Shown one piece after another: positions 30,598-64,000 of a DNA stretch of 64,000 bases. The DNA is from Hexactinellida sp. DTS-2022 (lineage: Eukaryota; Porifera; Hexactinellida). The notes beneath the pieces were generated by a model. That model saw only the letters and a program-made list of their open reading frames with translations. It was not told where the DNA came from and ran no database searches. The stretch is from positions 6,014,001-6,078,000 of the forward strand of contig JAPNXP010000009.1 in assembly GCA_028753945.1 (NCBI GenBank), read 5' to 3'. Positions within the stretch are counted from its first letter, which is position 1, and each line of letters begins with the position of its first letter. The translations under genes were made by a program, and so were the position numbers.

Positions 30598-33500
30598 CTA
30601 GGATGCCATGGCAGGATCGAGTGTGGCTCCCTTGCCGACCCCGGCTCTGACGATCCTAATGGGCAGACCAGATCCGATAACTGCCTCTCCTCTATTCACC
30701 AGGTCCAAGGCTAGATCCACACTCGACTTGTGCGCGAATTCTACAAGAGCATATTTCGCAGAAGCAAAGCTTCCTCGTTTCTTATGTTTCTCTACTTTGA
30801 CTGAAATGATTGCTCCGCATTTGGTGGTGTACAGGAGTCGCTTTACCATCTCTAAGCTTACGTTTGCAGCCAGGGGCGTCAGGTAGATCGTGCGTTCTAT
30901 CCGCTCGGGGTCCAGGTACTCGGCGCGACGAGACAAATCGAATTCTAGCTTCTTAGTCGAATCTCTTATTAGGCCAACAATAGTGACTAGCGTCTCGTAC
31001 TCCAAGTTATTCCCGGCTAAGAGGAGCTCTCTCACGGAAGAGTTCTTGGATTCAAGTACCGTCTTGACTAACTTTATAGAGAACTCGTCAGGGATTAAGT
31101 TGAATTTGAGCTTAAGACTCTTAAGAGTCGAGTTTTCTTGCAGAGCCTCGCAGATGAGACCAGCTCCGCGTTTCCTGACTCTGTTCATTCCCAAGTCGAA
31201 TATTTCGAGGGACTTATTAACGCGCAGCGCTGCTGCAATCTCTACTATCCCTGGTACATCGAAGTAGTTACAGAAGATGGAAAGATCGCGGATGCAGCAA
31301 GTAGGGGACTTGATGAGTTCCGCGAAATACTTAGCTCCCGCTGCATGGAGATCATTGTGATCGACTTTCAGAATTTTCAGATGAGTGTTGCTCTTAAGCC
31401 CTTCACATAGGATGCGAGCCCCGTGTCTACCGAGGTCATTGAATGACAGATCCAGCGTATCTAGTATTGGGTCAGAAGCTAGGTATTCCGCGAGGGGGGC
31501 TGTTGTGTTAGCGTTGAAATTAGAATGGGATAAATATAGCTCTTTGAGGTTGCAGAATATTTCGCCGAAAATCCTCACAAAGAATTTGCGCTGTTTCTCA
31601 CTGGTGAGCTCTTGGAATTGGTTACCAGATAACTTGAGTATTTCCAAAGAAGAGGATTGTTTCTTCTTTTCCTTATCAAACAACTGTAACGTACTTTCGA
31701 ACGTGTTCATTGCCATGCTATTGTTTTCCAAGTTGAGTTCTCTCAATGCACATTCTTTGCTTAGAAGACCGACGGCAAGAACCTTATAACTAACCATACC
31801 AGAAGACCCCAGATCCATAGTATCAATCGTAGTGCATTTTGCAAACTCTTTCATTACCGTATTATTCAGGAAAACACCGATCTTAGTTTTCCAGAAATTC
31901 ATTGTTTTTAAAGAGACGTTCAGCTTGAACAGTTTCACTAATGCCACTACTAGCTCGTTAGAATCCGCCACACTACTGCTGGGCGAGAAGTTAATTTCTG
32001 AGAGATTCACGTGTTCAATTACGTTGCTATAGGCGAGGTTTTTCACTACAGCTGCGATACCTGAGGACTGGAATAGATTCTTGCTGAGGTTCAGAATGCG
32101 TAGGTTCTTCTTAACCAGTAATCCTTCAGACAAGTTTTTAACACCTGCATCGTTTATCTTACAAGCTCGTAAGTTAAGGTGTGTTAGGTTAGGCAGAGAG
32201 CGGTGTTTCATTAAGAGTTCTGCTAACATTTCTGTTCCTTTCATCCCTAGGTTATTCCCCTCTAGATCCAGCTTATAGAGACGGTCAGAAGTCAGATGAC
32301 TCTCTGCCAGAGCTGCTACGCCCGTCTCGGTTATGTCGCTGTAGCGCATGTCTAGCACTTCCAAGGAACCAGAGGCCTTCTCGAGACCCTTTATCAACTC
32401 TTTGAATCCTCTTTGACCCAATCCGACCTCCCCCTTTATAATCGTTAGATGAGACAAATTAGTTAGCTTCTGTAGCATTCTGGCGATGAAGTAGAACTGG
32501 GATTTAATGTTGTCCGGCCTGAAAGTAGTTATTTCGAAGCGTTGAATGTATTTACTGCAAATCTCAGTTGTTTTGTAGAGACTGTTAAAGTCGGGATTGT
32601 CATTCAGCTTCGATATAAGCTCCTGTAGAGAATACTGCAAGTAGAGCTGTCTCCATGGCTTAGTTAGCTCAGTGTAATCCTGTGGCAGTTCTGAAAACCC
32701 GAACCGAATATCGGTCAGCTTTTTCCACTCATCCTCTTCATCGAGAAGCTCGTACTCCTCTGTGCCCCCGCTCTGCACTACCATTTCATTGAGAGGCTTG
32801 ATACTGCCGAGTCGCTGCTTCTCGAACTCTTCCGGTGACACCACCTCAATGCCACGGTCTCTATGGTACTTCTTTTCAGCGGAGTACGAGACTGCTGCTC
32901 GCAGCTTATCATTAATCTCGTCATCCGAGCTCACTGGGTATCTGACCATCTCGAAGAAGCGCTTATACGTGCTAACTTCTAGCACCTTTTCCTTCTCGGA
33001 TATAACCTGGTCGATGACTGCAGGAGGGATTCTCCCTAAGTGCAGGTCATACTGCTTAGCCAGGTCCTCCACTGTTCTGCCCGCTCCCGCGAAGAGATTC
33101 GAGAAGGTCAGCAGCATCATCAGCAGGCGATTGGAAGCTCGCGTCACTTCGAAACTCTTCTCAGCGCGGAATTTGTCAATCTCAGGATTGGGCTCACTCT
33201 TGTCCAACTTTGGAAATCTCTTGGTGACCCAGTACACGTTCCTAGCCATGGTCTCCTCAACATACGCCCTACACAGCTCCTCTGTCCAGGTGTCCCCGGA
33301 CATCAGCATCAACACAAGGAGCTCTGCCACGCTCGCGATAGCGTCCTTGTCTCTGTTCTTCGCGTCCTCAACAAAGCGCTTCACAGCTAGCTTACAGTCC
33401 TGCTGTAACTTGGCGTCTTCAATGGCCAGCTGCAGGAATATCCTGTGCATATACCCGAAAGCGCTAAGGGAACGCATGGCCTTAGCACCGCTACGCTCTA

Positions 33501-34659
33501 GGAACTGCAGTGTGAGCTTAATCAGACATTTGGGGAAGAAGTCCAGAGGCATGTCTCCGTTGTAGGAGTCAATGAGAGGAGCCCCCGTGTACAGGCGTGC
33601 TAGCGACGTTCTGATTAAGTGCTTGCATTTAGTGTAGTGGGAATCTACAAGGTAGAGTGGCATTAGGTAGGAGAAGTTCTCTCCGAAAGCTTGTTTTATT
33701 TTGAGTCCGTTGAACGCGTTGAGAGAGATAATATCGGGTGAGCAGTAGACGGTCTGGATCTTCCCAGTACGTACGTTCTTAGAAATGTTTATGCCGAGTC
33801 CGATGACTGCCTCTTCGTATGTTTTCTTTGTGAAGAAGCAGACTGCCCACTCGGCGCCGATCTGCTTGTCGGTTATCTTCTCGCTGAGGAAGCTGGCGAC
33901 TCGAGTGGGGTCGTTGCGAGGGGGACAGGGGTGTCTGGGTCGGTGCTTGCTGGTGGAATCCTCGTACCTGAGACTCTGTTCGACCGAGCCACTCACAGCA
34001 GTCAGCCACTTGCGCTTCTCGTTTTCGTAGCGGTCAAACGCCACATTCTCGAGTGCATTCTCGACGGTGCCTTGGAAGAGCAGACTCTGCAGCTGCATTA
34101 GGATGGACAGGGCAGTGTACTCGGGGGTCCACACTTCGTAGCGGTTGGGAATAAGTCCAACTCCATTGTAGGCAGTCAAGAACGGGAGTGTGATTATCTG
34201 GCCGGACACACAGGGATGGTGGATACGCGTTAACATGCGCATACTAGGGGGACTGCGAGGGTAGTTAGCCGGGAAGTCAATTGTGAAATGAAATATTCCT
34301 CCTTCGTACTGGGTATCCTCAGGGCCAAATATATTTCCTCTCCACTCGAAGAAATCGTTAGGCAGAGGAGAGATGCTTACAAAGGGCAGGGGCGAGTTCC
34401 TAACCTCAAGGTAATCTTTGAAAAGACGCTTAATCGGACTGGTTAGTTTGGTTACATCTTGTTGCGCCTCGTAAGAGGCAAAGTTGAGCCCGTCTAGGCT
34501 TGTCAAATCAGACCCTGTACCTTCTGAGTGTGTAAAAAATACTTTTTCAAAATTTGTTCGCTCCCCTCTGGGGGCTCTGCCGCCTTGCTCGGTTCTAGGA
34601 GCTCTGTCGCCACTCGAGTAACCGCCTTTTCCACGTCCACGAGATCCACGTCTTGACAT
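30598..34659 (-). CDS. Single-exon UBC-like / leucine-rich repeat / RRM fusion protein
   Basis: An intronless 1353-residue protein with an unusual domain order. Residues 1-40 are RGG-type (GSRGRGKGGYSSGDR). A ubiquitin-conjugating-enzyme fold covers roughly 70-240 (DFFEWRGNIFGPEDTQYEGG, then FPANYPRSPPSMRMLTRIHH and EVWTPEYTALSILMQLQSLL). The canonical HPN triad reads HPC, and the position of the catalytic cysteine aligns with Ile (SGQIITLPF), so it is probably not a classical E2. A long helical middle part of about 450 residues is unrecognised. Ribonuclease-inhibitor-type LRRs run from about 740 to 1240 (LTHLNLRACKINDAGVKNL and many others). The C terminus is an RRM-like fold (RTIYLTPLAANVS, AKYALVEFA) resembling that of La-related proteins. 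A link between RNA and ubiquitin pathways is inference. Confidence 0.85.
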   Translation of the reverse strand: MSRRGSRGRGKGGYSSGDRAPRTEQGGRAPRGERTNFEKVFFTHSEGTGSDLTSLDGLNFASYEAQQDVTKLTSPIKRLFKDYLEVRNSPLPFVSISPLPNDFFEWRGNIFGPEDTQYEGGIFHFTIDFPANYPRSPPSMRMLTRIHHPCVSGQIITLPFLTAYNGVGLIPNRYEVWTPEYTALSILMQLQSLLFQGTVENALENVAFDRYENEKRKWLTAVSGSVEQSLRYEDSTSKHRPRHPCPPRNDPTRVASFLSEKITDKQIGAEWAVCFFTKKTYEEAVIGLGINISKNVRTGKIQTVYCSPDIISLNAFNGLKIKQAFGENFSYLMPLYLVDSHYTKCKHLIRTSLARLYTGAPLIDSYNGDMPLDFFPKCLIKLTLQFLERSGAKAMRSLSAFGYMHRIFLQLAIEDAKLQQDCKLAVKRFVEDAKNRDKDAIASVAELLVLMLMSGDTWTEELCRAYVEETMARNVYWVTKRFPKLDKSEPNPEIDKFRAEKSFEVTRASNRLLMMLLTFSNLFAGAGRTVEDLAKQYDLHLGRIPPAVIDQVISEKEKVLEVSTYKRFFEMVRYPVSSDDEINDKLRAAVSYSAEKKYHRDRGIEVVSPEEFEKQRLGSIKPLNEMVVQSGGTEEYELLDEEDEWKKLTDIRFGFSELPQDYTELTKPWRQLYLQYSLQELISKLNDNPDFNSLYKTTEICSKYIQRFEITTFRPDNIKSQFYFIARMLQKLTNLSHLTIIKGEVGLGQRGFKELIKGLEKASGSLEVLDMRYSDITETGVAALAESHLTSDRLYKLDLEGNNLGMKGTEMLAELLMKHRSLPNLTHLNLRACKINDAGVKNLSEGLLVKKNLRILNLSKNLFQSSGIAAVVKNLAYSNVIEHVNLSEINFSPSSSVADSNELVVALVKLFKLNVSLKTMNFWKTKIGVFLNNTVMKEFAKCTTIDTMDLGSSGMVSYKVLAVGLLSKECALRELNLENNSMAMNTFESTLQLFDKEKKKQSSSLEILKLSGNQFQELTSEKQRKFFVRIFGEIFCNLKELYLSHSNFNANTTAPLAEYLASDPILDTLDLSFNDLGRHGARILCEGLKSNTHLKILKVDHNDLHAAGAKYFAELIKSPTCCIRDLSIFCNYFDVPGIVEIAAALRVNKSLEIFDLGMNRVRKRGAGLICEALQENSTLKSLKLKFNLIPDEFSIKLVKTVLESKNSSVRELLLAGNNLEYETLVTIVGLIRDSTKKLEFDLSRRAEYLDPERIERTIYLTPLAANVSLEMVKRLLYTTKCGAIISVKVEKHKKRGSFASAKYALVEFAHKSSVDLALDLVNRGEAVIGSGLPIRIVRAGVGKGATLDPAMAS

Positions 34660-35472: not shown

Positions 35473-44618
<9,146 letters not shown>

Positions 44619-45682: not shown

Positions 45683-45878
45683 TTGTGTTCCTTGTTGGAT
45701 AATACTGAACTTATACCTAAACTATAAAGGATTAGATCAGCAAATATTACTAAGTTGAAAGTAATACATTACTATGGATCCATTTTATAGAAAATGGCTA
45801 ATAATAAAAGCTATTATAAAATAATAACTAATTTACGACTCCTCTTTCTTTTCAAGTGTGTCTGTGAAGTAATTAGGA
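45683..45878. promoter_or_regulatory. Putative bidirectional promoter region
   Basis: Only 196 bp separate the divergent start codons of the VOPP1-like gene (minus) and the PG-rich repeat gene (plus), so promoters for both must lie here or overlap the genes. No specific motif is claimed. Confidence 0.45.
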
Positions 45879-48694
45879 ATGTACGGGAGAGCAAATAGGC
45901 AGTTGACTGAGGCCAGTAGCTCCACTGCTAAGCAGGTGGGGCCCGGGTCCTATGAGCGGAAGGACCTTCAAATGTGTCCCAAGATGTCCTATAGTCTCGG
46001 GTTCGCCCCCTTCCTCTCCATGGCCGACCGAACCACTTTCCTAGACATCGATGAGGAAGTTATCAAGACTCCAGGCCCTGCGCACTATATGCCCATGTTC
46101 GCCTTTGACCACGTGAAGGGAGGCCGGTCGATGGACAGCAAGACGCAGCGCTTCCGGAAGAAGAGCATGCAGATACCCGGGCCAGGGACCTACACCACCA
46201 GCAAGTCAGCTGATTGGATAAAGAATCGCTCTCCCGCGAAGGGAAACGACCTCGGCAGCGGCATGGGAATGCAGATAAGCTCTGCTGCTAAAGCCCGGAC
46301 CCCGATTCGCAGGACCGGGGGCGTCAAGTTCCTACGTCAGTCCGTGGCCCCCTCGATCCCCTCCACCGGCCAGGCGTACGGCTACGAGGAGACAGGCGAG
46401 GGGTTCCTGATACCGCACACGGCGCCCGGATGTGACGCCTCGATGGGACCGGCCTACTACCACCCCAGCTATAGGGAGACACACACCACCAATAAGTACT
46501 AATGCACAGTATCTCGTTAGATAGACGTTACACTTGTTTGTTAGGTATAAAGGTTGTCACTTCGCAGCTTTGACAGGCGATAGAACTAAGTTTGAGGGCA
46601 GAGAGGGCCCGGGACCAGGGGATTACCAATCCGTAGACCCTCCCCCTGTCCGGACAAGCCAGCCGCCAGACTCGCCTGAGCCCAGCGTCAATCCGCACCC
46701 CAACTATCCGTCTCGCTCTAGCAAGGGAGAGATCCCTCGGTACCACGAGCTGGTGGTGTTGGAGAGCGAGAAGAAAGCTGTCCCTGGTCCAGGTTCATAC
46801 CTACTCCCCAGCCAATTCGAAGACACTAGTAAGGTACGGTCAAACCGGTTTTTTCTAACTAATCGATTTTTTCTAACTCACTATTTATTCTACATGCATA
46901 AAAAATTCCAATTTTGTTTTATTTTCAATCGGTTTATTATAATTATCGGATTTTTCATACTATATTTCCACGTAAAAATTGGTTAGAAAAAACCGGGTTC
47001 GACTGTAGTTAGCTAAGTACCCTATTCAATACACTATACCATGCATACATATCTCACGCAGGTAACTGAGACTAACGAAGAGAGACCCCCATTCGGCTCC
47101 TCCGCCCCTCGGTTCTCGGACGGGAATGGAAAGACCCCGGCTCCTGGCTCCTACGACGACCCGCGCACCAGTCTGGACGCTATTCGGCGCATCAGCGGAA
47201 TGAAGAACACTCCGTTCGGGCAATCAGCTGTGAGATTCAAGCCTCAACATCACATTAGGTCAGTTCGTTATCATCGATCGTGTGCCTCCATAAGTAGGGC
47301 CCAAAAAATCTGGAATCATTTCAAAATTTTCAAATTAGTAAATTAGAACTAAATTCGTAAAAGTTGGTTTATGGATATCACCTATAAGGGATCCTAGAAT
47401 GTATTTTTCGGAGAATGTTGAAATCAGTAACCAGGACTATACTAACTCCTAAGCTTAGCTTATAGAGTCTGTCTAAACTTACAATCTACAGACAAACGCC
47501 TGGTCCTGGTGCGTACAACAACTGCCCAATAAATAGCATAACAGCTGAGCTCAGTCGCAAGGCTATCCTGGAGAGCTGTAGGAAGGGAGCCTTTGGGACC
47601 ACCACGCCGCGCGTACTGCCTCTCTCCAAGAAGCAGGACGCTATCATCCCTGGTCCGGGTATGTACGAGCCCAAGGAAGAGCCCACTGGCGAGTACCACA
47701 GTGTTATTGCTAAGAAGAAAACCGCAAACTTTGTTTCCACATCGAAACGCCTGCACTCTCCCCCTCCGATCGTGAGAGACATTCCTCCGCCAGGTATGGT
47801 AGCTAGCAAGGAATATCCAGGAACGCGAGACGCTCCTTTTGGAGCATTATTTTTGGAAAATTTGAATTTAGGAGCGAAAATTTGCAATCCTCTCATATAC
47901 AGTAACATTAATTTGTGATTTAGGCGTATGGTAATTGGATCAGACCAGGATTAGGAGCTTATTTACAAATGGCTGTATATATTACACTGGTAGCTAGGAT
48001 GCGTTTATTAGTATAATTACTGAGTGCAGGTTCTTATGAGGTCGCCACGAGCTACGATATGACGCAGGGGAAGGAAGGCTCTCATTTCGTGGGTCAGGCT
48101 AGCGGCCCCTTCCTGACGACCTCCAAGAGATTCCTGAGACCCAAGGACCCCCTCCCCGAGACGACAGACCCTGACAACCCGGGCCCTGGAATGTACGAGA
48201 CGACTGAGCCGGATCTGTTGTCGAAGAATGGAAAGAAAGCCAGCAAGGCCTCTGGCCTAATTGTTACCAGATCGAAGAGGTAAGTTAAGGTGGCAGTTAA
48301 TTATCCCACAATTCGTGTTATTGCATTTGTAGTGTAGTATAGCTTATACTACAGATTTCTAAACAAAATATTAAAAACACTTTTATTCCATATTTTCAAA
48401 TGTGACACTTTCAAAAATTATATCCCCCTAAGATTCCTATATAATTCAATCTCTTTCTGGTAACAAATTACCCATTGCGAATATAGGTTCTCTGATGTTA
48501 AAACCGATGTCCCGGGGCCTGGCTACTACCAGTTCCACCCTACAGTAGCATCCAGCGTCCTCAAAGGTACATACAACGCTTCTCTGAATAACCCATTACA
48601 CACAGCTGATCACACGGGACTAATGAACAAGCACTCAGCGCCCAACAGGAGCAACTCAGCCAACAAACCCTCTCAGGTTGTTGTGGTCCAGTAA
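45879..48694 (+). CDS. Sperm-tail PG-rich repeat protein (STPG/ODF3 family)
   Basis: Six exons (45879-46495, 46545-46833, 47062-47258, 47492-47793, 48030-48279, 48487-48694) join in phase to give 620 residues. About ten copies of the PG-rich repeat occur: VGPGSYE, TPGPAHY, IPGPGTY, GPGPGDY, VPGPGSY, APGSYDD, TPGPGAY, IPGPGMY, NPGPGMY and VPGPGYY. They are spaced by basic segments of the type FGSSAPRF or FVSTSKRL. This is the STPG/ODF3 (CIMAP) layout, whose members bind inside or along ciliary and flagellar microtubules. The protein is long for the family, so it resembles multi-repeat STPG members rather than the 250-residue ODF3. Introns range from 49 bp to about 236 bp. Two of them (46834-47061 and 47794-48029) hold MITEs, one abutting the splice donor. 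Confidence 0.9.
46835..47007. mobile_element. TA-flanked MITE abutting a splice donor in the PG-rich gene
   Basis: The left end TACGGTCAAACCGGTTTTTT and the right end, whose reverse complement is TACAGTCGAACCCGGTTTTT, form inverted repeats of about 26 bp. The flanking dinucleotide is TA on both sides. The first TA lies within the donor GTACGG at 46834, so the element's end supplies part of the 5' splice site. Confidence 0.8.
47807..47989 (+). mobile_element. 183-bp hAT MITE, copy 2, in the PG-rich gene intron 4
   Basis: It begins CAAGGAATATCCAGG and ends ATATTACACTG. Perfect 8-bp duplications GTAGCTAG flank it (47799-47806, 47990-47997). Same family and length as the element in the IRF intron. 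Confidence 0.92.
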
Positions 48695-48698
48695 TAAA
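48693..48698 (+). terminator. AATAAA overlapping the PG-rich gene stop codon
   Basis: The stop TAA at 48692-48694 is part of TAATAAA. If used as the poly(A) signal, the mRNA would have an extremely short 3' untranslated region. A further AATAAA about 85 bases on is an alternative. Confidence 0.4.
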
Positions 48699-49045
48699 CG
48701 AACTTACAATAATATATCTGTTCTTATGGTGTATATCTATTCAACCCGATCTCTTATATATCCAAATTGATAATATTTATAATAAACTATTATTAATTAC
48801 AATTGCTAATATTTCCTTACCAGGCTAAGCATCTATCCATAGTTATTACTCAGTATTGCTATTTGTATTGTTTACACTCTGCTAGGATACCAATACATGC
48901 ACTAGTTATTTCACTAGGATGGTAAACTCCCAAAACATTCGTTTATGCTCTAATTACTTGTTTATCACCAAATTAGAAGTTTAGTGTCCCACTTATTCTG
49001 CTAACAATTCATTTATTTATGGTAATCTATACGTGACGTCACACC
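48695..49045. other. Spacer before the giant repeat gene
   Basis: 351 bp of AT-rich sequence with the 3' end of the PG-rich gene and the 5' region of the giant gene. No gene seen. Confidence 0.5.
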
Positions 49046-52000
49046 ATGGATCGTATAATATTTTGCATTTTGCTCCTGATCTGTCTCTGCATTCCTGCAA
49101 GCGCTCAGATCCAAATATCCCAATGGGAGCTGGACCTGAACTCCGGGATTCTCCGCTTCGAGATCGCCGGTCTCTCCACGGTGGACATTACCGGTCTGGA
49201 CTGCACCAAGCTGCGTCTGCTGGGCAGTAGAGCAGCTGTGGGCGTGACAGTGCCGGATGTGCAGCTGACTGGTTGCGAGTCAGCTGTTTCCCTCAGCAAC
49301 GAGTTCTCCTTCCAGCTGTTGAACGGAGATCTGGACAGCGTGAAGCTAGCCACTGGCATCGCCACTCAGATAAGCAGCGCCTATCTGAGTGTAGACACCG
49401 GAAACGGCGTGACTGATGGAACAAACGAGCTACAAGCCTACTCCCAACAGGAGGCTGTACAGGCCTCTCTTTACACGGTGTGTTACACTATTATAACTTA
49501 TAAGCCCTTCGGTCTATTTCGTTTTGCTATAGACATATTTTTGAATCCAAGTTTTAGAAATTAATTATATAGATTTACCTATGTACAAATTGCTTGTTAT
49601 TACACTTATTGTCATAGCCTGACACTACTGCTCCTGCCATTATCGATGGAGGCTACACTCTGTTCGATCTGAACACCGGCACGCTAACGCTCAGCTTCTC
49701 GGAGCCCGTTCTCGTCTCGAGTCTAAGGAGCTCGGCTGTGAGCGCCCCCTCCAACAGCACCCTCAGACTGCAGGCTCACTTGACACACCCTCCTTCACAG
49801 GAGCATTACTATGACGTCACTATTCTCAGCTGTTCGTCGTGTGTCAATGGGGAGACTCTGCAAATAGAGATTGGTTACCAGGACCTGAACGCTATCAAGT
49901 TGAAACCACAGGTAATAACAACAAAATGAAACTGAATTATACAAATAACTTATATAGAGCTCAGCTCTAGTAGAGTTCAGTTTTTCAGTATGTGTATTCA
50001 GGTACTGAGAAGGGGTAAGTTTTTCCCTGAGTTTGAAATTAACCTTTAGAAAGTAAGCCTGGGCTTTTAGTATGGGAAAAAATCTGAACTCTACTAGAGC
50101 TCAGCTCTATATAAGGATTCTCTGAATTATATACATTCCATTTGCTAGGTGTGTACTGACATCAGTGACTGCTGGATAACTATTCCAGCTCCTGGAGATC
50201 TCCTCACGGACATGATTGGTGTCAATCTTAGTCCGTTGCCTAGCGACCTCCCTGACACCCGAAGAACTCCTCTGGCATTCGTGGCAGACACAACTTCACC
50301 AGAACTTGTGTTCTTCTATTTGGACCTTAGCAATAGGACCCTTACATTGGTATTCTCCGAACCTGTCAGAGTACAATCTCTAAGAGCTACTGGACTCACT
50401 CTCCTCTCTAGTCCCTCTCAATCTCATGAGGATTATGTACACACATTCCAATCTCTCAACCCGGTATCTACGGACGGGACAACAGTGGTCTGTATCATAA
50501 GCAGTGATGACGTCAGTGCTATTCTCATCAGGACTGGCCTGGCGGTTTCAGAAGTAAGTTAACTCCAATCAATTAATGCAATATATTACTACCACTATTC
50601 CTCAGAATACAACCTACCTGAGTGCTACCTCTGATACGATCCGGGACCTAGCTCTCTCTCCTAACTCACTGGAGCCTGTCCCTATCTCCGACCCCCTCCA
50701 GGTCTCCCTATTCCAGGGGGACACCTCCTCTCCCTCCCTCCTCTCTTTCGACCTGGACTTCAACTCACACACGCTCTCTCTCACCTGGGACGAGCCTACT
50801 CTTCCTGGCTCCTTACAGCCCAGTAAGATACTAATAAACAACAACACTGCATCAACAGCTCCCGCCTACAGGCTCACTGGAGGTATGCTCTGTGTTATTC
50901 GCTATACTATGGTTGTGTGACTAGTCGCTAGGTGTCCTGCTGACTCCCACTCACATCGGATCTGTGACCACACTGCTCCGGTTGAACCAGCTAGACGTGA
51001 CTCAGCTCAAGAGCTCCTCCTCTCTCGCTACCTCCGCCGGCAACACGATGTTGCTAGCAGAGTCAGGCGCTATATACGATACTTCCAACGTCCCAAGTCT
51101 CAATATCCCCCTATCAGCGTCTCTACAGGTATTGATTGTAGTTGTTATGCATTATAATCTACAGGAGACGCTTGTTAATACGGGATCAGTAGACCGCCAT
51201 AACTTGTTCGTGTTATCTGGAAATTCGTATTAATCGAAATCATTCGCATTACTTGACTCGTTAATTGACATTAATTGATATCTCAATTCGTTTCGTAGGT
51301 GACTCTGCTAACAGCTGACATCACGCCTCCTCAGCTGATTAGCTTCTCTCTGAACCTAGACTCTGGTCAGCTGTTTCTAAGCTTCAGTGACGCCGTATCA
51401 GCTGCTAGTTTCCGCGGGGACGCCCTCACTCTCCAGTCCTCGCCAGCCTCCGTCGCGGGGCGGTACGTGACTCTCTCCAGGAACGGGACCTATCCCTCTC
51501 CTGTCACAGATGGGTTTGTGTTAGCTGTCACAATATCCCCGTCTGACCTAAACAGACTCAAACAGGTATATCCCTATGAGTCATTAATTAGTTCATGCAC
51601 AGTACAGTAGAAACTCGTTAATACGAACACCAACGGACGGTCCAAATTTGTTCGTCTTATCCGGAGTTCGTATTAACCGGAATAATACAAATTGAAAGCC
51701 ATTATAGCTAGGGACCTGATTTTGTGTAAATTCTGTTCGTGTTAACCGTGTTCGTACTAACGAGGTTCTACTGTATATAACTAATTTCTATTTTAGAACG
51801 AGTTCGTTGGTAACTCCATTAATGACACCTTCCTCCGACTGGCCGCTAGCCTGGTGGATGACCTCTACGGCGTGGACGTGATAGCCATTACGGATGGACA
51901 GGCACTAAAAGTCGCATTATTCGTTTCAGACTTCACACGACCTAACATTCTGTTCTACTCTCTGGACCTGAACGCTGGGATTCTCCTCCTCTCATTTGAT

Positions 52001-55000
52001 GAAGCTGTGAGCAATTGTACTTACCCATGGTTGCATACAATTATTCCCCTTATATCTAGGTTGACACGAACAGTCTGTCAGCCAGCAGCATTGTGCTGTT
52101 CTCCGCTACCGACTCAGTGCGACTCTCCGCGCCCGCTTCCATCCAGCCTCGGAACGCGGACAGCATCATGTCCCTGCTTCTCTCCCAGCAGGACACCAAC
52201 GCCATCAAGCTCAGCAGCAGTATTGCCACTTCCGTTGCTAACACATTCCTTAATGCCACTGCTGTTGCTATTCTCGACACTTCCGGCAACCCCCTCACGC
52301 CCATCTACAACCTGTCTCCTCGCGACTTATCCTCCGACGCGACTGGCCCTGCTCTCCTCGAGTTCGATCTCGACATGAACACCGGGCAGCTAGTGCTGTC
52401 GTTTGACGAAGTTATACTCGCCTCTTCGGTGCAGGTACGCTGCTTAATTACACTGAATAGCTATATTACTTATTTATATGACATCACTTTCTAGCTGACT
52501 GGAATCACAATGGGAGATCGGCGTAGCATCTTAGGATTCAGCTCCTCTCACACGCTCACTCCCCTGAGTCAGATATCTCTCTCTAGCAGCAGCGTGCTGT
52601 CAGTCTCGCTCTCCACTCAGGACCTGGATAGCGTAAAGATAGCTGGAGTGGGCATCTCTGTACAGTCCACCTACATTAGTCTCTCTGAGCTCACAGCCAC
52701 GGACATGAGTGGGAATGCTAATCAGGGAACTGGGACAGCTGCAGAGTTACAGGTCTCTGCTCTCACGGCAGATGCTACGAGCCCACTCCTCCTCTCTTTC
52801 GATCTGGACCTCAACACGGGAATCATGGCTCTTAGCTTCACAGAGGCTGTGACAGCTAGCAGCTTTGTCCCGTCTCTGGTCGCCCTGCAATCCGATCAGT
52901 TCGGGACAGGGAGCAGTCTCTCCCTCTCCGAGGGCGTGCTACTGGGCGGAGACGGGCCTCTGCTGCGGCTACAGCTCAGCACTGGGGACCTCAACCTTCT
53001 CAAAATATCACCTGTAGCCCGTGACAGCTTTTCAACATACTTGTCTTCTCCCAATCCACTCGTGCAAGACTCGGCAGGAAACCCAAATGTTGTTATTCAG
53101 TCCTCGCTAGCTTTGCTTGTTCAGACATACGTATCTGATAATACGAGCCCTGAGGTCAGTAATGTTATTATTTGATTCTTAATGCATTCATGTTTATATA
53201 CTCTGTATCAGGTGCTGATGTTTTCTCTCGACCTACAAGCCAGGACTCTCTCTCTTGTATTCAGCGAGGCAATACAGATCTCCAGTCTGAGTATCAACCA
53301 GTTTTCTATTCAAGACAGACAGCTCACTCCCTCGCAGTCCTTCTCACTCACCTCCAGCTCTTCCACACTGTCGTCTGACGGTACAGACATCTCTATAGAC
53401 ATCTCTAATGCCGACTTTAACAGTATTTCTGCTCTGGAGCCACTTGGCACCTCGATAGAGGACACTTTTCTGACAGTCACTACGAATGGAGCGCAAGACT
53501 TTGCTGGCAATAACATAGTGCCGATACTATCTAGCTCCGCTCTCCGGCCGCAGAACCATTCCCTCGACAGGACCAGTCCCCTGCTCACTGCGGCTAGTCT
53601 GGACTTAGACTCGGGCGTTCTGAGGCTGGAGTTCGATGAGACGGTCTCACTCGAGAGTTTTACTCCCAGCTTAATCACACTACAGAATAGCGCTTCCGGC
53701 CCTACTCAGTCCATCACGCTTTCTGGCGGTGTTAGCACTCGGCCGATTAGCACTGCTATTCTCCTACAGCTCCTTGACACTGATACGAACACGATTAAGG
53801 CTCTGACAAACTTATTAACAGGCGCTACAAATTCTTTCATATCGTTCCCTTCATCCCTATTGCAGGATATGCACTACAATCCGATCTCACCAGTGTCTCC
53901 ATCAGCTGCGAGAGCTATTTCTCCTCTCACGCCTGACACCACAGATCCTGTCCTGTACAAGTTTGATTTAGATCTCAACACAGGTCTCTTGTTGCTATCG
54001 TTTGACGAGACGGTTGACTTATCCACTTTATCTGTTTCCTCTCTGACTCTCCTCTCTTCTCCCGGAACTTCCTCTCCAGCCTTGGTGCTCTCCGATTCTG
54101 TTCCCTCCTCCTCTGGTCTCCTACTAGAGGTCTCCCTCTCCATAGACAGTACACAGCTGGAACTACTGAAGCAGAGAGATATCTGTCTCACTTCTGACTC
54201 TTGTTTCCTATCTGTGAGTACAGCTTTCTTGCAGGACACGAATTCAAATCCTATTTCCACGATCCCGGTATCTGCTCCTCTGCCAGTGACAGAGTTTATT
54301 CCAGACACAACTCAGCCTGCGTTGCTGAGTTTTGACTTATTTGATTTGGATTCTGGTGGCTTGATCAGTTTGCAGTTCTCGGAAATAGTCCGTTCATCCA
54401 GTTTCAACCCAGAAAGCATTACCTTGCATGAGAGATTCTCGAATTCTCTAACGAACCTAGTTATCTCTCCACAGTCTTACTTACAGAGCCCAGTATCCGA
54501 TCTGATTATCAATCTCACACTCAGCAATTACGACCTGAGTAGAATTAAGCTTGACCCTATCCTCTGTATCTCTCCTAGCTCCTGCTTCCTGAGTATCGAC
54601 TCTCAACTCGTCGCTGACCAGTCGGGTAACCTTATTTCCTCAGCTCCTGCCACTCGGTATCAGCCAGCGCTATTTGTATACGACACCACGGCTCCCTCTC
54701 TCGTGGAGTGGGAGATAAGCCTAGCTAGCACTGGATTGGCAGTTTTTGTGTTCGATGAGATTATCTCTGAAGTTTCTTTTGACAGTTCTAAATTAGTCTT
54801 TCTGAACCCTCTCGGCACAAACGGTACCTTCAGTCCCTCTAGTGGTGCTATCACCAGGTCTTCAGATGGATTCTCTATTGTGTACGCATTCACGCAATCG
54901 GATCTAGATGGAATCAAGATTTCTGAGCATATCTGCACTAGTATAGAGGACTGCTATCTCTCGTACACTCTAGCACTCGTCACTGACGTCAGCAGTGTGC

Positions 55001-58000
55001 CGGTTGAATCTAGACCTGTAGCCTTAGCTCTACAGACCATTAGCTATTCCCCAGACATTATTTCCCCTTATCTAGTTTCCTTTACACAATTTAACTTGGA
55101 AACTCGTTCTTTCAACTTGCTCTTTAATGAGCCAGTGAATATATTAACTGCGGTACTGACGGACATAACTATCATAAAACATCGATATATATATGTGTAC
55201 ATTACACTTAATGGCGGTGAGATTGAGTGGGTAGATGCATACAGGAAAGAGGTTTGTTTACTTACATTATTTTTAACATTTTGTTAATTTTTCATTATTT
55301 ATAACATTTTGTTAATTTTTCATTATTTATAACATTTTGTTTATTTTTCATTATTTATAACATTTTTGTTATTTTCGTAGGTACGCGTTTACTTGACTCG
55401 AGAGGATTACAGGTCGTTTCTCCAATGGGTGGATCTAGCCGATAACGCACACACCACTTCGGTATTCTACCCATCTGGCATGATACGGGATATGGCATTC
55501 AACCCAGTCTTAGAGATAACCAACCTTTCCGTTGTACCTCTAGAGATTCATGGATTTATTAGCGACACATCTCTCGCTTCTCTGATTGCTTTCGACATCG
55601 ATATTAGCAACAATACTTTAACATTGGAATTCAGTGACGTTGTTAGGAGTGCCTCTTTGAATACGGTTGGTATAACACTTTTATCTCAGCCTCGCTTGAA
55701 CTCTACCAGCCACCAGTTCGCATACAATGCTACTGAAATCAACCCAACTGTTCTAGCTCCTGTAGATGCTGCCAGGGACTATTATATCATTTTGTCTCAA
55801 CTGAAGGCCCCACCCCCAGGTCTGGCTGCTCCTAATGACGACTTTAAAATAACATTTAAAGGGAAAGATTTCAATGAGATAAAAATCCTGACAGACCTAG
55901 CTACTTCTAATGTCGATACATTTATTCTTACCTCAGAGGACGTTGTTGTTGATATTTATGATAGAAATGTAGTCTCTTCGGAATTCTTACAAGTGCGGTC
56001 ATTCTATCCAGACTTTGTGCCTCCCAACTTAATTGCATTTACACTTAACCTAACTTCTTCCACTGCTACGCTCACATTCGATGAGCCTGTAAACCCGTCA
56101 TCTCTGATAGCGTCTAGGATTGTATTCCAGAACGCTGCTGTCCCGACTGTGCAGTATCGACTGTCTGATTCTATTAACTCTGGTGCTACAATTGGTATTT
56201 CAGTGTTTGTATTGGTGCTCGGGTATAAAGATTCAAACGCTCTTCTGTCTATCTCCAATTTAACAGAAAACCTCTCCACTACCTTATTGAGACTGGACTC
56301 AGGTGCGCTTTCAGATCAGAACGGAAACCCTTGCAATTCCATTCCAACCAGTTCTGCTATTTCAGCTACTTCATTTACACCGGACACAACTCGCCCTTAC
56401 CTCGTATCCTTTGACCTCAATCTCAATGATAACTATCTGTCTTTGTATTTCAACGAAGCCGTGAATCCCTCCACATTTAATCTGTTAGCTATCACTTTAC
56501 AGAATGCTCGAAGTATTAATGAGAGTACATTTACCCATACGCTATCCTCCGTTTCTTTTGTGTATACTCGTAGCTATGACGGCCTCGTTTTCATAACACT
56601 CGTAGACGCGGACCAGCTTTTGCTAAAATCCTTATTTACACTCTTTGCTAAAGTGAGCAACAACACTTACATTTCATTCCCAGAGTATACCATACGGAAT
56701 TATGCGAATCTTTATGTTGAGGCTGTGAGTCCGTACAATGCTCGCGAAGTGAATAACTTGATAGAAGACCTAACTTGCTACGCCACTCAAGCAAGTGTGT
56801 ATATTCCTGACTCTACTCCGCCGATTCTGGAAGCATTTGATATAGACTTGAACACTGGACAATTGGAATTCTTCTTTAATGAAACTGTTAACCACTCTTC
56901 CGTCTTCCTGCCGGCTGTAACTCTGCTGGATGCTGCTACCAGCCCTCAACACGAGTACCAATTGAAGTTTATTGGAGAGGTGTTCAGTCCTCGTAACAGT
57001 GAGAATCTTACTATGTTTATTAGCCAAGAAGATCTCATATTTATTAAAGATAACCCAAGCTTGTTTATATCTACCGGTAGCTCTCAGCTCTCTTTCACTC
57101 GATTGTTTATACAGGACATGTCCGATAACTCGATTGAAGCTGTTGATTATGCAGCAGCTATTCAAGCACGCGAATTCCAAAGGGACAGTTTTGGACCTCT
57201 GCTCAATAGCTTTTCACTTGATTTGGATTTGGGGCTAGTCAATCTCACTTTCAACGAACCAATAAATGTGTTGAATTTTAATCCCGATTCAATCACAATA
57301 CAAAACGCGGTTATTCTCGCCTCTCAGAACTTTACTCTCACTGGAAATCAGGGACCTATTTCCGTCAACTCTCCCGCTACTATACTAAGCTTTACCATCG
57401 AGTCAAATGATTTGCTAGTTCTCAAATCGATCCCGGATCTCGCTACCTCCGTTAATGATACATTTCTAACTCACACAGACTCTCTCATCCGCGACAAATC
57501 TCCCCCCTCTGGCAACAGTATCAGCGCTATCAGTGTAGGAATTCGCGTTTCTGAATTACTGTCCGACACCACAAGACCTAATCTCGTTAGTTTCCCATTT
57601 CTCGACCTTAATGTTAATCAGTTTGTTATTTCTTTCGATGAGCCGATGGACACTCGATCTCTGCTTCCGGAGTTTCTCACATTTCATGCCTCGCAAGGCG
57701 GTCCTATTTCGATTCCCCTCACAGGGGGCACATTTGTATCTTCCTCTGAACTGGATAGAAGTATCGTCATAGAGCTCAATCAAGCAGATAGATTCTCTAT
57801 CAAGAACAACTCAAATATCGCTACCCAACCTTCTAACACATTTATCTCGACAACTTCCCAATTAATTAATGACACAACTGGAAACCCTGTGAATACCATT
57901 CTACCGGCTAACGCTCTCCAGTACAACTTCTTTGCTATTTTACCTGACACGACAGGTCCTCTTGCCACAGACTGCCATCTCGACTTGGACACAAGAATGT

Positions 58001-61000
58001 TGTCACTCACATTCGATGATCCAATTGATCCCATCACTCTGAGTCTCTCAAGGATAACTCTACATCGAACTAGCGACGGGACTAATCCAGATGATAGCTA
58101 CGAATTCCAAGACACAGTCATTTCCAGCTCTCCTCCTGGCTACTCACTTGATGTGGCTATCACAGAACGAGATTTTAATGGTATTAAAGTTGAGGCATTC
58201 GTAGCAGTTGACGAGAATACGACTCATATTTCTATGTTGGCCGATACGGTACGAGATCTATCGAACAATCCATCTGAGTCAATCCTGTCTACCTCTGCTA
58301 TAACGTGTTCCCAGTACACCCCAGATAAGGCCGCCCCCTATGTCACTCTCTGGACTCTCGATATGGACTCCACCCCCACTCTCACAATCGACTTCTCAGA
58401 GACGGTGCAGCTGGATAGCTTGCAGCTGGACTCTTCGCCTATCACACTAGTGGGGCTACAGGGCCAGCTGTTCAACTTGACAGGCGGCGAGTTCAATAAA
58501 TTACCAAATTCCCCCCGGGTAGTAATTTCTCTAACCATTGAGGACACAAACGCGATTAAAGAGCTGCTATTTCTGGCTACGAATATTGACGACACATTCC
58601 TATCTGTTCTTGCTGGTGCCATGTTTGATCTAGACAGCAACCCTCTCCAACCAATAAATGTATCTCACCCATTGCAAGTTAGTATGTTCACTGCAGATAC
58701 CACGAGTCCTAACCTACTCTATTTTAACATTGATATGGATACTGGCCGGCTCTGGCTGACCTTTGACGAGATAGTGAATGGCAGCACTCTTATTCCGTCT
58801 CTGATTGGAATCCAGCATACCATCCAGCCCGATCCTCCGCTATACAGCTTCACAGGCGGTGATTTTCCTAACGGATTCAGCACCGTTACTTATCTCAATA
58901 TAACTATTTCTGATCTTAACGAGATAAAGCGACTTGAGGGCCTCTCTGTCTCTAACCTTACAACCTATCTTACCATGCGAGAAGGTGCAATTATGGATGT
59001 TATTAGTGACTTATCGTCCAACCCAGTTAATGAGATATTTAACACGGGTCCTATAAAAGTAACAAGATTTATTCCTGATACCACAAACCCGATCTTCTTT
59101 AGATTTTCTCTTAATCTCACCTCTGAATCTCTCTCTCTAACCTTTGATGAGACGGTAAGTTTTATTAATTTTAACTATATTTAACCATTTATATCACGAT
59201 TAACTCTCATTAGTAGTAGTCTGTGTACGCTAAATGAGACGTCTGTATTATTTTATCACATAGGTTGAGTCGTCTTCGTTCAACGTATCAGACATTCGTC
59301 TACAATCTATCATGAGTGGTAACTTTACTAATCCAACATCAATCTTTCGTTACCTCACATCTACGGGCCCTTATCCCAGTGCCCTCCTAAGCCAAGATTC
59401 TACTGTTCTCACAGTTGGGCTAGGACAGGATGATCTCTACGCGTTCAAGAAATATCCGAAATTTGTATCATCGGCAATGACAACTTACCTTTCTTTCAGT
59501 GAGAAACTAGTTACGGATATGAACTCAAATCCTGTGTTACCGGAACTCACCTCTCCTCTTCCATTTCCTCACAGTTTTTATTCTGACACGATCAGGCCCT
59601 CTCTCTTATCCTACACTATAAATCTTACTTCGGAGTTGTTGGTTCTGTCATTTTCAGATATCGTCAATGCCTCTTCTCTGGACATAAGCGGTATATCTGT
59701 GCAGAGTGATGCCGCGAGGCGGTCCACTACCGAATTCTATGTTCTTTCTCCTGTCTCTAGCTGGGGCTCCACTCAATACGACTCACTAGTCACTGTGTAC
59801 CTCGGCCTGAGTGATCTGAATGAAATTAAAAAGCTGAGAGGTCTCGCTGTTGATGGGGCCACTACATATTTGGCTTTTGAAGCTAAGACGATTGAAGATA
59901 TGAATAGGAATCAGTTGAATCCAATCGATCCATCTCAGGCTTTGGGCCCATTGAGTTACTTTCCCGATACAACTCGCCCTATACTCCTATACTTTGAACT
60001 GGATCTCGAGCAACATTTAATTATACTTTACTTCTCCGAGACTGTATTTATTGATACATTGAATGTGTCAGAACTCAGTTTGCAGTCCACTGCGTTTGGT
60101 GGAACATCCTACAGCTTGAGTGTCAATAGCATTAGTATTGACTTGGATGGGCCTCGTATGACTCTTTCTCTCGATCAGACAACGGATGTGAATTCTCTCA
60201 AACTTCTAACAGACCTGGCTCAGAGCCCTAACACTACATTCATTAGCATTACTGAGAATTTTATATTGGATGCATTCGGGAATAAAATAGTTTCCATAGA
60301 GAGCTCCAGTGCACTTCAGGTGGTCTCGTATCTTCCTGATGTTACCGGTCCTTATCTGCTTGGATTCGATTTAGACATTGATTCAGCTGTTGTGACTCTC
60401 TCTTTCAACGAACCTGTCTCTTATAGCTCTCTGGTATTTACAAGATTGAGATTTCACAGCGATTTACTTGGGCTCTCTTCTGTTGTGAACATATCTAATG
60501 GCACTCGTATCCCCCCGAATGGATTGGAAATCAAATTCAGATTAACTGTGCTCACTCTCAATCAGCTAAAACTCGATCGAGGCGTGGCTACGCTACTAAT
60601 TAACACCTTTATTTCCATTCAATTAGGAGCCATATACGACCTAGCACTAGTTAGAAACCCCGCGTTTGAGAGCACTTACGTAGTAACACTATTGACACCA
60701 GACACAACTCCACCTAATCTTCTGTACTTCCATACCGATATGAATGTTGGTGTACTCACTCTAAATTATGACGAAGTTGTAGATGCTAGCACATTGGATC
60801 CAACTACATTCACATTGACAAATTCTCAGAACCCAACTGAGACACACACCCTAACTGGAGGAGATACAACTAGTCCGAATGGCCTACAAGTCCTTCTTAA
60901 TCTAACTGTGCAAGATTTAAATACTCTGAAACAGATGGAACAACTCTATACGGAAAGGTCGAATTCCTATCTCACGTTCTCATCTCTAGCTATAAATGAT

Positions 61001-64000
61001 ATGTCTGGTAACCCTGTCACTGCCATTTCAACTTCCTCAGCTCTTATCACCTCTGTATTAATCAACGATACCACAAGGCCTGTGCTACGTACATTCGAAT
61101 TTGATTTAAATTTGGCACAACTAACTCTCAATTTTTATGAAACGATCGACATCTCAACGCTAAGAATTGATCAGATATCACTCCAGCAGTCTTCTGACTC
61201 TCTTGTTTCTCACACACTCACAGACGGGTATGTGGTCTCACTCGAGGACGACATCTCTGTTAAATTCAACCTCACTCTCCCAGACCTCAATCGGATCAAA
61301 GCACTCCAGATTGCCATAACTTCCGCTACAACTTGGCTTACGTTGACAAATGATACTATAAGAGATATGAATGGCAGGAGGATAGTGGAGATTACAAATG
61401 GCTACAACGCAAGGCTGGTAAACACCTTCATTCCAGATGTCACAGATCCTGTGTTACAGTATTACGACTTGTTTGTCAATAACGGTACTATCATGCTACA
61501 TTTCTCTGAGACAGTCAATGCATACTCTCTTGATGTCTCACAACTCTTCATTCAGCCTTCTCACAATGAAACTGATCCCCTCCTAACTCACTCCCTCTCC
61601 CTCCCATCTCACACACCAACTGGCTACAGTCCTGATGTACTCGTGTACATCTCAGTTGAAGATCTCAACGAGATAAAGAGACTTACCAATCTGGCTGTAT
61701 CTTCCGATACAACATTCTTATCGCTTACTCCCTCTGCAATCAGGGATATGAGTGACAATCCTGTCACGCCTGTCTCTGAATTAAACGCATTGCAAGTGAG
61801 AAATTTCGCATCTGACATATCTCCCGTAGCGTTACGTGGGTTTGACTTTGACTTGAACTCTGGTGTGATTACACTGAACTTCTCTGAGCCTGTGTATCCA
61901 TCTACTTTGAATATTTCTCAGTTTTCATTTCTATCACAATCAAACATTTCTCTCGGAGGGAGTAGACTGATATTGTATGGGTCAGCTCTTACACTTGAAC
62001 CTACAACATCCCTACGGGTACAACTGACTCTAGAAAATCTCAATGAAATTAAGAGACTCTCCTCTTTAGCCACTGCTGTCAGGAATACATTCCTTTCCAT
62101 CACAAAGCACGCTATACAGGATACGAATTATAATTCCATAGTCGCTATTCCTCCTATCAGAGCTCTCCAGGTCTCTACTTTTGTGAATGATATGACTTCG
62201 CTTCAACTCGTTAGCTTCAATTTGGATCTTTCGAACAACACTTTAACTGTTTTCTTTGACGAGACAGTAAACGCTTCAAGTCTCATGGTTGTAGAGCTCA
62301 CATTTTTTGGAACAGACAACCTCACCCTTGGGCCTGAATACACCCTCACAGGCGGCGTTTCTAATTCTTCTGATGGAACTGTTTTGGTAGTGGATTTAAC
62401 TAGGAATGACCTCAATGCTCTCAAAGAAGATTTGCAATATTATATTAGTGACACAACAACCTTCATCTACCCTACTAGTAGCTTCATCAGAGACATGAGC
62501 GGGAACTTTCTCTCACAGCCGCTTGTTCCTATAGCTATTTCCATTTTTAATCCTGACATTATTCCTCCCAGAATTGAGTCTGCTTTTCTAGACATGAACC
62601 AGGGCATTTTAAGTCTGTCCTATGACGAGGTTGTTCTCGGATCTTCTCTGAATGTGGAAGAAGTGTTCATACAGGCTCGAATAGGCGCTACAGATAATGA
62701 ACAGCGATTGCGTCTCAACCGAACCCTCGGATCAGCTGATCAGACGGGGACTACCGATGGAGTAGATTCTGAGATATCCATTCGACTCGGGGCTAACGAC
62801 TTGAACGAGTTGAAGAGACTCACACAGATCGCTATGAGTCTCAACAGTACCTATTTATCTTTCTCCCAGTTCTCTATTGTAGACACGAATGGAAATAAAG
62901 TTGTCTCTCGCCCCTACAATAATCCATTACAAATTAGTGACCTCGTATTTGATATAACTCGTCCTAGATTATTATCATTCGATATCGACATGAACTCCGG
63001 ATACCTCGATCTAACTTTTGACGAGACAGTTAACGTGAGTAGTCTAGTTCACACGGAAATAACATTACAAGGAACCGAATCGTTTATTCAATCAATGACA
63101 CACTCCATTCTACTGAGTGGTGGTACTACGCTATCTCTGTTAGATTCGACTCAAATACAGTTCGTTATAACAACTGAAGATTTGAACCAAATCATGTTTT
63201 TGCAGTTGCTTGCTACCTCAATTAATGACACTTATATCGCAATTACGAATCACACTATTAGAGATATGAATAATAACTATGTCTGGGCGGTCTCCACTTC
63301 TTCTGCCATTCCTGTAACAGATTTCAAACCGGATACAACAAGGCCTAATTTAAACCAATTCACACTGGACATGAATCTAGGCATAATTACAATCTGGTTC
63401 TCTGAGACTGTTAATGCTAGTTCTTTGTACATCTCTTCCCTCACGCTACAGGATTACACGACTGCTGCTTCTAACTACACACTCACAAACAGCACCTCCT
63501 CCCAAACAGACTCGACCACCCTTCTAGTTTATCTATCATTCACAGACCTTAATGCTATCAAAAGCAATCGATATATTGTTACTTCACGTACCGATACTTT
63601 CCTTAGCTTTCCACATACACTCGTGTTGGATATGATTGGGAATTGGGTAAATCCTAGGCTAAATGGGTTTGCTATCCAAGCTGCTAACTTCACTCGAGAT
63701 TTCATCCGGCCCCTTCTCGAGGACTTCTCTCTTGACATGAACACTGGAGTATTAGTGCTCACCTTTTCAGAGACGATTGACACCAGAAACTTTAACGTAA
63801 CACAAATAACTCTACAGAGCATCCAGATCTATAATTCCTCTCTTACAGAGCAAACTTATACTTTGAGAAATACTTCTATCCTGGGAGAGGATTATTACAT
63901 TATTCCTATACAGCTAGGATATGAAGATATCAACAGTGTCAAGCAGCTCTCAGAACTCGCTACCTCAGTCTATACCACTTATGTTGACTTCCCCTGGACA
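49046..64000 (+). CDS. Giant secreted/surface protein of about thirty Ig-like repeats (partial at 3' end)
   Basis: Twelve exons join in phase: 49046-49477, 49618-49911, 50149-50553, 50606-50882, 50932-51128, 51299-51565, 51797-52006, 52060-52434, 52495-53154, 53212-55251, 55381-59154, and 59264 to the window edge without a stop. At least 4556 residues are encoded. A signal peptide opens the protein (FCILLLICLCIPASA). The rest is one repeat of about 140 residues, roughly thirty times. Its consensus runs DTTRPxLLSFDLDLNTG, LxLSFDETVNxSSL, a variable loop with LTGG, DLNxIK, then TFLS and DMSGNPV. The beta-strand pattern resembles bacterial SbsA-like Ig domains. Many NxT/S sites occur. A few repeats carry a close Cys pair. 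Function is unknown; an elongated extracellular or adhesive rod is inferred. The C terminus lies beyond the window. Confidence 0.9.
49949..50115. mobile_element. MITE with 31-bp inverted ends in giant gene intron 2
   Basis: The left arm begins CTTATATAGAGCTCAGCTCT and the right arm is its inverted copy with one difference, ending AGAGCTCAGCTCTATATAAG. The arms include CTAGTAGAGTTCAG on both sides. The target duplication is ambiguous because the tips read TTATA/TATAA. It fills most of the 237-bp intron 49912-50148. Confidence 0.75.
51160..51268. mobile_element. Degenerate pogo/mariner-like MITE in giant gene intron 5
   Basis: The left end TACAGGAGACGCTTGTTAAT and the internal TTGTTCGTGTTATCTGGAA match the better preserved copy at 51603. 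The right boundary is approximate. Confidence 0.5.
51603..51775. mobile_element. TA-flanked pogo/mariner-like MITE in giant gene intron 6
   Basis: The left end is TACAGTAGAAACTCGTTAAT and the right end is its inverted copy, finishing GAGGTTCTACTGTA. Each is bounded by TA. Length 173 bp, within the 231-bp intron 51566-51796. Best-preserved copy of the TTCGTATTA family in this window. Confidence 0.85.
55275..55375 (+). repeat. 28-bp tandem repeat in an intron of the giant gene
   Basis: About 3.6 copies of a 28-bp AT-rich unit start at 55275, 55303, 55331 and 55359. They fill nearly all of the 129-bp intron and run up to the acceptor TTTTCGTAG. Confidence 0.85.

Follow-up and report, generated by a model that had tools for sequence, protein, structure and literature searches.

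Animal matrix and adhesion proteins are usually described by a kit comprising Ig/FN3, cadherin, EGF, laminin and collagen. Titin is intracellular, is made up of I-set Ig and FN3 domains and is encoded by hundreds of exons; PKZILLA-1 is a modular synthase of 45,212 aa; and the cores of the sponge aggregation factors combine tandem Calx-beta repeats with a Wreath domain. The SbsC/SbsB proteins of Geobacillus surface layers (S-layers) are lattice proteins with a few Ig-like domains. The extenders of the RTX/BIg adhesins (MpAFP/MpIBP, MhLap, AhLap and SiiE) are described in PMC7493085, PMC5466336 and PMC4083281 as long tandems of acidic beta-sandwiches of ∼100–125 residues with conserved acids at the domain junctions.

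The 64,000-nt stretch analysed here (the window) corresponds to positions 6014001–6078000 of contig C18 in a hexactinellid sponge genome of 112.4 Mb and 18 contigs. It contains the first part of a gene whose giant product is of the S-layer Ig type by predicted fold, resembles the extenders of bacterial giant adhesins in design, and by sequence stays below the cut-off of every curated family searched. The family thus uses an Ig type other than that of the animal kit, with bacterial surface layers as the best solved matches of its predicted fold, and does so at a titin-like scale.

As in the RTX/BIg extenders, tandem beta-sandwiches connected by short linkers are predicted, and the 121 repeats and 1.72 MDa of the window protein compare with 120 repeats and 1.5 MDa for MpAFP. 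The differences are a C-terminus with TIG domains instead of RTX, predicted secretion via a signal peptide, and a higher divergence of the repeats, which are identical in MpAFP and 65–90% identical in MhLap. With SbsC/SbsB (PDB 4uic, 4uj6, 2ra1, 4aq1) the protein shares the predicted Ig-like fold at an identity of 8–11%, but here 121–395 domains lie in tandem and the gene is an animal one with introns. Titin is likewise a giant tandem-Ig polypeptide, and super-repeats occur in part of the array of a paralogue on contig C12; however, the present protein is predicted to be extracellular, is of another Ig type and showed no I-set Ig or FN3 match in the stretches scanned (parts of the window, 25 repeats and C12 pieces), while the C12 paralogue has one 147-kb coding exon where titin has hundreds. 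Fibrocystin/PKHD1-like proteins have TIG domains in common with the window protein, which differs in carrying only three, at the C-terminus of a non-TIG main body, with no evident transmembrane segment. PKZILLA-1 and giant bacterial ORFs share with the C12 paralogue a length of tens of thousands of residues, but the latter is a structural repeat array of 49,073 codons in one exon.

Structure of the gene

Contig C18 was read past the window, and a repeat profile derived from the C12 paralogue was mapped on all six of its frames. The gene starts with an ATG at 49046, encoding MDRIIFCILLLICLCIPASA, and its 14 exons sum to 46,959 nt including the stop codon, specifying 15,652 residues. In window coordinates, which for exons 12–14 run beyond the window, the features are as follows (exons 3–14 derive from splice joins):

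49046..49105, + strand: signal peptide MDRIIFCILLLICLCIPASA (translation, hydropathy; cleavage after ASA is a guess)
49046..49477, + strand: exon 1, signal peptide and divergent first repeat (profile map, splice joins)
49115..64000, + strand: Ig-like repeat array with a period of ∼124 aa (profile map)
49618..49911, + strand: exon 2 (GT–AG splice)
50149..50553, + strand: exon 3
50606..50882, + strand: exon 4, followed by a phase 1 intron after YRLTG
50932..51128, + strand: exon 5
51299..51565, + strand: exon 6
51797..52006, + strand: exon 7
52060..52434, + strand: exon 8
52495..53154, + strand: exon 9
53212..55251, + strand: exon 10
55381..59154, + strand: exon 11, 1,258 codons of repeats
59264..64000, + strand: exon 12, portion within the window, running on to 68245
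68310–79750, + strand: exon 13, beyond the window
79869–97473, + strand: exon 14 including the stop codon, beyond the window

The coding portion within the window amounts to 13,668 nt, that is, exactly the 4,556 codons that the original prediction had given as a minimum in frame; following the contig to a stop codon, as it had proposed, leads to position 97473. Fourteen discontinuities were found between repeat matches. One (92823–92899) remains within a single open frame and was kept as an insertion rather than counted as an intron, while a GT–AG intron of 49–237 nt can bridge each of the remaining 13. Twelve of these putative introns sit within a repeat (some near its edge), which the joining completes; the exception (49478–49617) lies between repeats 1 and 2. 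In view of the 13 GT–AG joins, 12 of them completing a repeat, all exons are assigned to one gene. A 28-nt tandem repeat in four copies (55265–55375) is located inside the putative intron at 55252–55380.

A signal peptide had been proposed at the start of the protein, and MDRIIFCILLLICLCIPASA is indeed the 19-mer of highest hydropathy (2.64) among the 15,652 residues. Another 13 19-mers score above 1.6; they fall in about four places, every one of them within a repeat, and none lies after the array. Read from hydropathy rather than from SignalP or a transmembrane predictor, the sequence indicates a product that is secreted by means of a hydrophobic signal at its N-terminus and that has no evident membrane anchor.

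Repeat array and C-terminal region

The gene specifies 121 repeats arranged back to back, the last ending at residue 15,209, with no inter-repeat gap of more than 30 residues. Within the window 36 repeats begin and 35 finish, so that the earlier estimate of about thirty copies was slightly low, while the repeat length of 140 residues given with it must be replaced by a period of ∼124. The start-to-start distance is 120–129 residues in 95 of 120 steps in this gene, and in 317 of 394 in the C12 paralogue. Single window repeats matched the C12-derived profile with E values as low as 9.4e-33 (the best among the matches listed), whereas the remaining minus-strand frames of the C12 region reached only 0.27; the repeat matches are therefore not due to chance. 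The mean inter-repeat identity is only ∼28–29%.

Past the array, the C-terminus consists of three TIG domains (Pfam E 1.2e-27) followed by a Calx-beta-like stretch and the stop codon. In the Pfam search of the last 693 residues the Calx-beta-like stretch was the only one and fell below the cut-off (15.1 bits versus 27; E 0.024), and there was no RTX match; in place of RTX nonapeptides and a type I secretion signal, the protein has an N-terminal signal peptide. When compared with its own genome, the TIG-bearing C-terminus matched itself and, weakly, one TIG gene on contig C5.

Searches for related families

Pfam, NCBIfam and PDB sequences were searched with repeats, frames and a 25-repeat profile. 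A confident match to a described family had been named as a result that would refute the original reading; none of the three collections gave the repeats more than a sub-threshold or chance match. The SbsA-type bacterial Ig-like family Big_5 (PF13205) gave at best 16.2 bits (E 0.018; curated cut-off 23.6 bits), and at E ≤ 5 it was seen in two of 25 window repeats (best 0.012) and in none of three C12 pieces of ∼3,330 aa. Like several more, including one to a 6-cysteine protein (E 0.37), the matches of repeats to Big_5, Big_12, MalM and GH5_C were dismissed as sub-threshold or chance and provide no evidence of membership. No cadherin match appeared when stretches of the window and the 25 repeats were scanned with Pfam, a result at the sequence level that is compatible with kinship at the fold level. 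The same scans of window stretches agree with the earlier view that transmembrane, EGF, FN3 and cadherin units are absent, the three TIG domains lying beyond the window. With a 1,371-aa query, no close relative was found in the contigs of 84,980 prokaryote species, nor a close viral one in IMG/VR, in a search that detects close relatives only. Titles and abstract beginnings of the open-licence literature yielded no description of such a protein, a weak negative, and the word 'giant' is absent from the available portion of a Tethya paper (PMC11347921).

Predicted fold of the repeats

AlphaFold2 models were obtained for two segments, the alignment for the second consisting of six non-overlapping triples from 17 initial ones:

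63332..63697, + strand: single repeat, pLDDT 95.9, best solved match SbsC
62555..63697, + strand: three tandem repeats, pLDDT 84.2, pTM 0.74

The similarity of the single-repeat model to the SbsC/SbsB-type Ig fold clearly exceeded that to unrelated structures in the fold search. The original prediction had likened the fold pattern to bacterial SbsA/Big-type Ig domains and suggested modelling one repeat; the model bears it out, since each repeat is predicted to fold into a compact beta-sandwich, with the Ig type of the S-layer proteins SbsC and SbsB. Neighbouring repeats are predicted to be connected via a short linker, which was confidently modelled. The architecture and fold class of the window protein are well supported. 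In BFVD, the top match was a viral 'Ig-like domain protein' (E 1.6e-4, TMq 0.51). Foldseek matches of the three-repeat model to GhpA, antibodies, NCAM, titin and SbsC had TMq values <0.2 and were considered generic beta-sandwich chains, not relatives.

Paralogues on contigs C12 and C4

Two repeat queries against the same genome rendered at least 166 and at least 144 matches, of which only the best candidates were scored. Among the matches listed, the repeat family is confined to C18, C12 and C4:

C12:3526958-3674176, − strand: paralogue, open frame of 49,073 codons (147 kb)
C4:3194195-3229643, + strand: gene whose frames include one of 566 and one of 11,202 codons
C4:3118446-3120059: short stretch of these repeats, separate from the C4 gene and containing an in-frame TAG; it may be a copy in decay or a gene broken by an intron

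The C12 frame contains no stop in 49,073 codons, versus ∼2,987 predicted from base composition, and is among the longest unbroken frames known to us. It encodes 395 repeats (5.39 MDa) with no gap of more than 50 residues between them, and a normal intron can therefore hardly hide inside it. Its 3′-end lies mid-repeat, at a GT that is a possible donor and which, judged by eye, has the same phase as the window-gene intron after exon 4 and lies within one codon of its position. No exon completing the last half repeat was detected within 22 kb downstream (best E ∼1, short frames), nor a signal-peptide exon within 24 kb upstream at the thresholds used. The frame therefore represents a minimum or a truncated gene. 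Just downstream of it are retroelement-like pieces with zinc-knuckle and reverse-transcriptase-like frames (by eye; C12:3521941-3523360, + strand, and 3524895-3526433, − strand), adjoined by a PDZ-containing syntrophin-like frame (by eye).

The highest pairwise identity was 48% among the 389 C12 repeats of at least ∼100 residues. Recent repeat duplication being nearly absent (no pair above ∼48%), the sequences suggest that such an array can long persist without homogenisation. The first ∼60 C12 repeats show a five-repeat super-period, with a same-phase identity of 34.8% versus 27.9%, and repeats 11, 16 and 21 stand out as its Cys-rich member; the whole-array contrast gave a z of 10.2 versus 300 permutations. 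The super-period was not seen in later C12 segments or in the C18 array.

We tentatively propose that the C12 paralogue may be a single secreted chain of no fewer than 49,073 residues, with 395 Ig-like domains and a mass of ∼5.4 MDa, encoded by one 147-kb coding exon; it would be longer than titin and PKZILLA-1 and possibly the largest animal protein. It would then belong, with the C4 gene and the window gene (15,652 aa), to a family not described before, namely extracellular cables on the micrometre scale (up to ∼1.9 µm for C12), locked by Ca2+, for which an animal has used an Ig fold of bacterial S-layer type. If expressed, the frame could set a record for an animal polypeptide and coding exon, and the translation, secretion and folding of >5-MDa chains would become testable questions. 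Three further giant uninterrupted frames, TIG-rich and of 4,697, 4,720 and 4,710 codons, are located at C5:289090-294696, C5:1100623-1106232 and C7:2285365-2290335; the genome seems prone to giant exons.

A conserved acidic triad and its possible role

Acidic residues at repeat positions 1, 25 and 101 were counted in 504 near-complete C12 and C18 repeats (516 minus those with <100 model positions). D1 was present in all 494 repeats aligned there, D/E25 in 497 and D101 in 498, with all three in 487. For the part of C4 analysed, D1, E25 and D101 occurred in 16 of 16 distinct repeats (19 rows, less three duplicates from overlapping loci). The rare losses are linked for E25 and D101 (P = 3e-5) and for D1 and E25 (P = 2e-4); joint loss of D1 and D101 was not significant (P = 0.11), nor was that involving the comparison positions 13 and 73. 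As the 25 strongest covarying pairs include 5–25, 6–24, 26–102 and 28–102, E25 and D101 are probably close together near the start of the domain.

The type I Ca2+ sites of SiiE are built from three aspartates, of which the preceding domain supplies one and the following domain the other two (PMC5466336). Four extender tandems are compared in PMC7493085, all with Ca2+ in their linkers, and MpAFP spans 190 Å per four repeats (PMC4083281). By analogy with the type I Ca2+ sites of SiiE and with the RTX-adhesin extenders, we infer that the window protein would bind Ca2+ between its domains and form a stiff rod. In this secreted, extracellular rod the near-invariant D1 (in the linker), E25 and D101 would come together at the N-terminal pole of every domain and would hold Ca2+ between that domain and its predecessor. 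Ca2+-rich sea water would then lock the chain into a stiff rod ∼0.5–0.6 µm long (∼0.57 µm for 121 repeats at ∼4.75 nm, a rise borrowed from MpAFP). The rod might hold the TIG/Calx-beta-like end, which is the likely binding head, at a distance from its anchor; alternatively, it might serve as a cable or spacer across the extracellular matrix. On the reading that we consider probable, the secreted protein is stiffened by Ca2+ and acts in the extracellular matrix or the cell coat as a spacer or cable whose binding head is the TIG end. An uncharacterised extracellular filament or adhesion protein had been suggested originally, and the signal peptide, the 121 repeats and the lack of an evident anchor support this. 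The family suggests convergence between animals and bacteria towards Ig rods stiffened by Ca2+.

Alternatively, the protein could be an adhesion or aggregation molecule whose repeats or N-glycans bind other cells or other copies of the protein, like the sponge aggregation factor or the giant adhesins of bacteria, rather than a mainly passive extender. Such a role would suit a secreted, acidic product with a mild enrichment in N-glycosylation sequons and a C-terminus bearing TIG domains and a Calx-beta-like stretch. However, that stretch is single and sub-threshold, RGD occurs just twice in 15,652 residues, and no single binding surface is evidently kept, since the repeats average only ∼29% identity; we regard this explanation as unlikely. 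Still less likely is an elastic extracellular spring with titin-like mechanics, its extensibility arising from individually unfolding Ig domains. Hundreds of beta-sandwiches in tandem, and the titin-like super-repeat of period five in the first ∼60 C12 repeats, are what a spring would have, but long linkers are absent (no gap >30 residues in C18 or >50 in C12) and the conserved acidic triad suggests stiffening, not slack. If an S-layer or adhesin gene had recently been acquired from bacteria by lateral transfer, the predicted SbsC/SbsB-like fold and the weak Big_5/Big_12 matches would be accounted for; this is made very improbable by the 13 putative introns, the C-terminal TIG domains, the three dispersed paralogues, an inter-repeat identity of only ∼28% and the lack of a close relative of the 1,371-aa query in the prokaryote contigs and IMG/VR, an ancient transfer being possible. 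That the array is non-functional or mis-assembled is hardly credible, for although the C12 frame stops mid-repeat with neither continuation nor signal exon in the flanks searched, it lacks every one of the ∼2,987 stops predicted, offers no near-identical repeats that an assembler could multiply, and is accompanied by consistent splice sites in the window gene.

Neighbouring genes in the window

Just upstream of the giant gene and on the same strand, positions 45873–48700 (+) contain a probable multi-exon sperm-tail PG-rich (SHIPPO/STPG-like) gene, recognised by a Pfam match for its first frame and by eye for the remainder. An interferon regulatory factor (IRF) DNA-binding domain is encoded at 41497–42246 (+; Pfam E 2e-32); IRFs are not known outside animals, and the domain thus points to an animal host. 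The cathepsin-like frames of the genome that were read in a search for a silicatein-type sponge marker carry the usual Cys. A 1,353-codon frame at 30598–34659 (−) joins leucine-rich repeats to a ubiquitin-conjugating (UBC) domain and an RRM match below threshold, which is, as far as we know, an unusual combination. Finally, a RhoGEF-domain exon of ∼838 codons is present at 23443–25959 (−), where a 2-kb block of 64% GC lies within a region of ∼40% GC.
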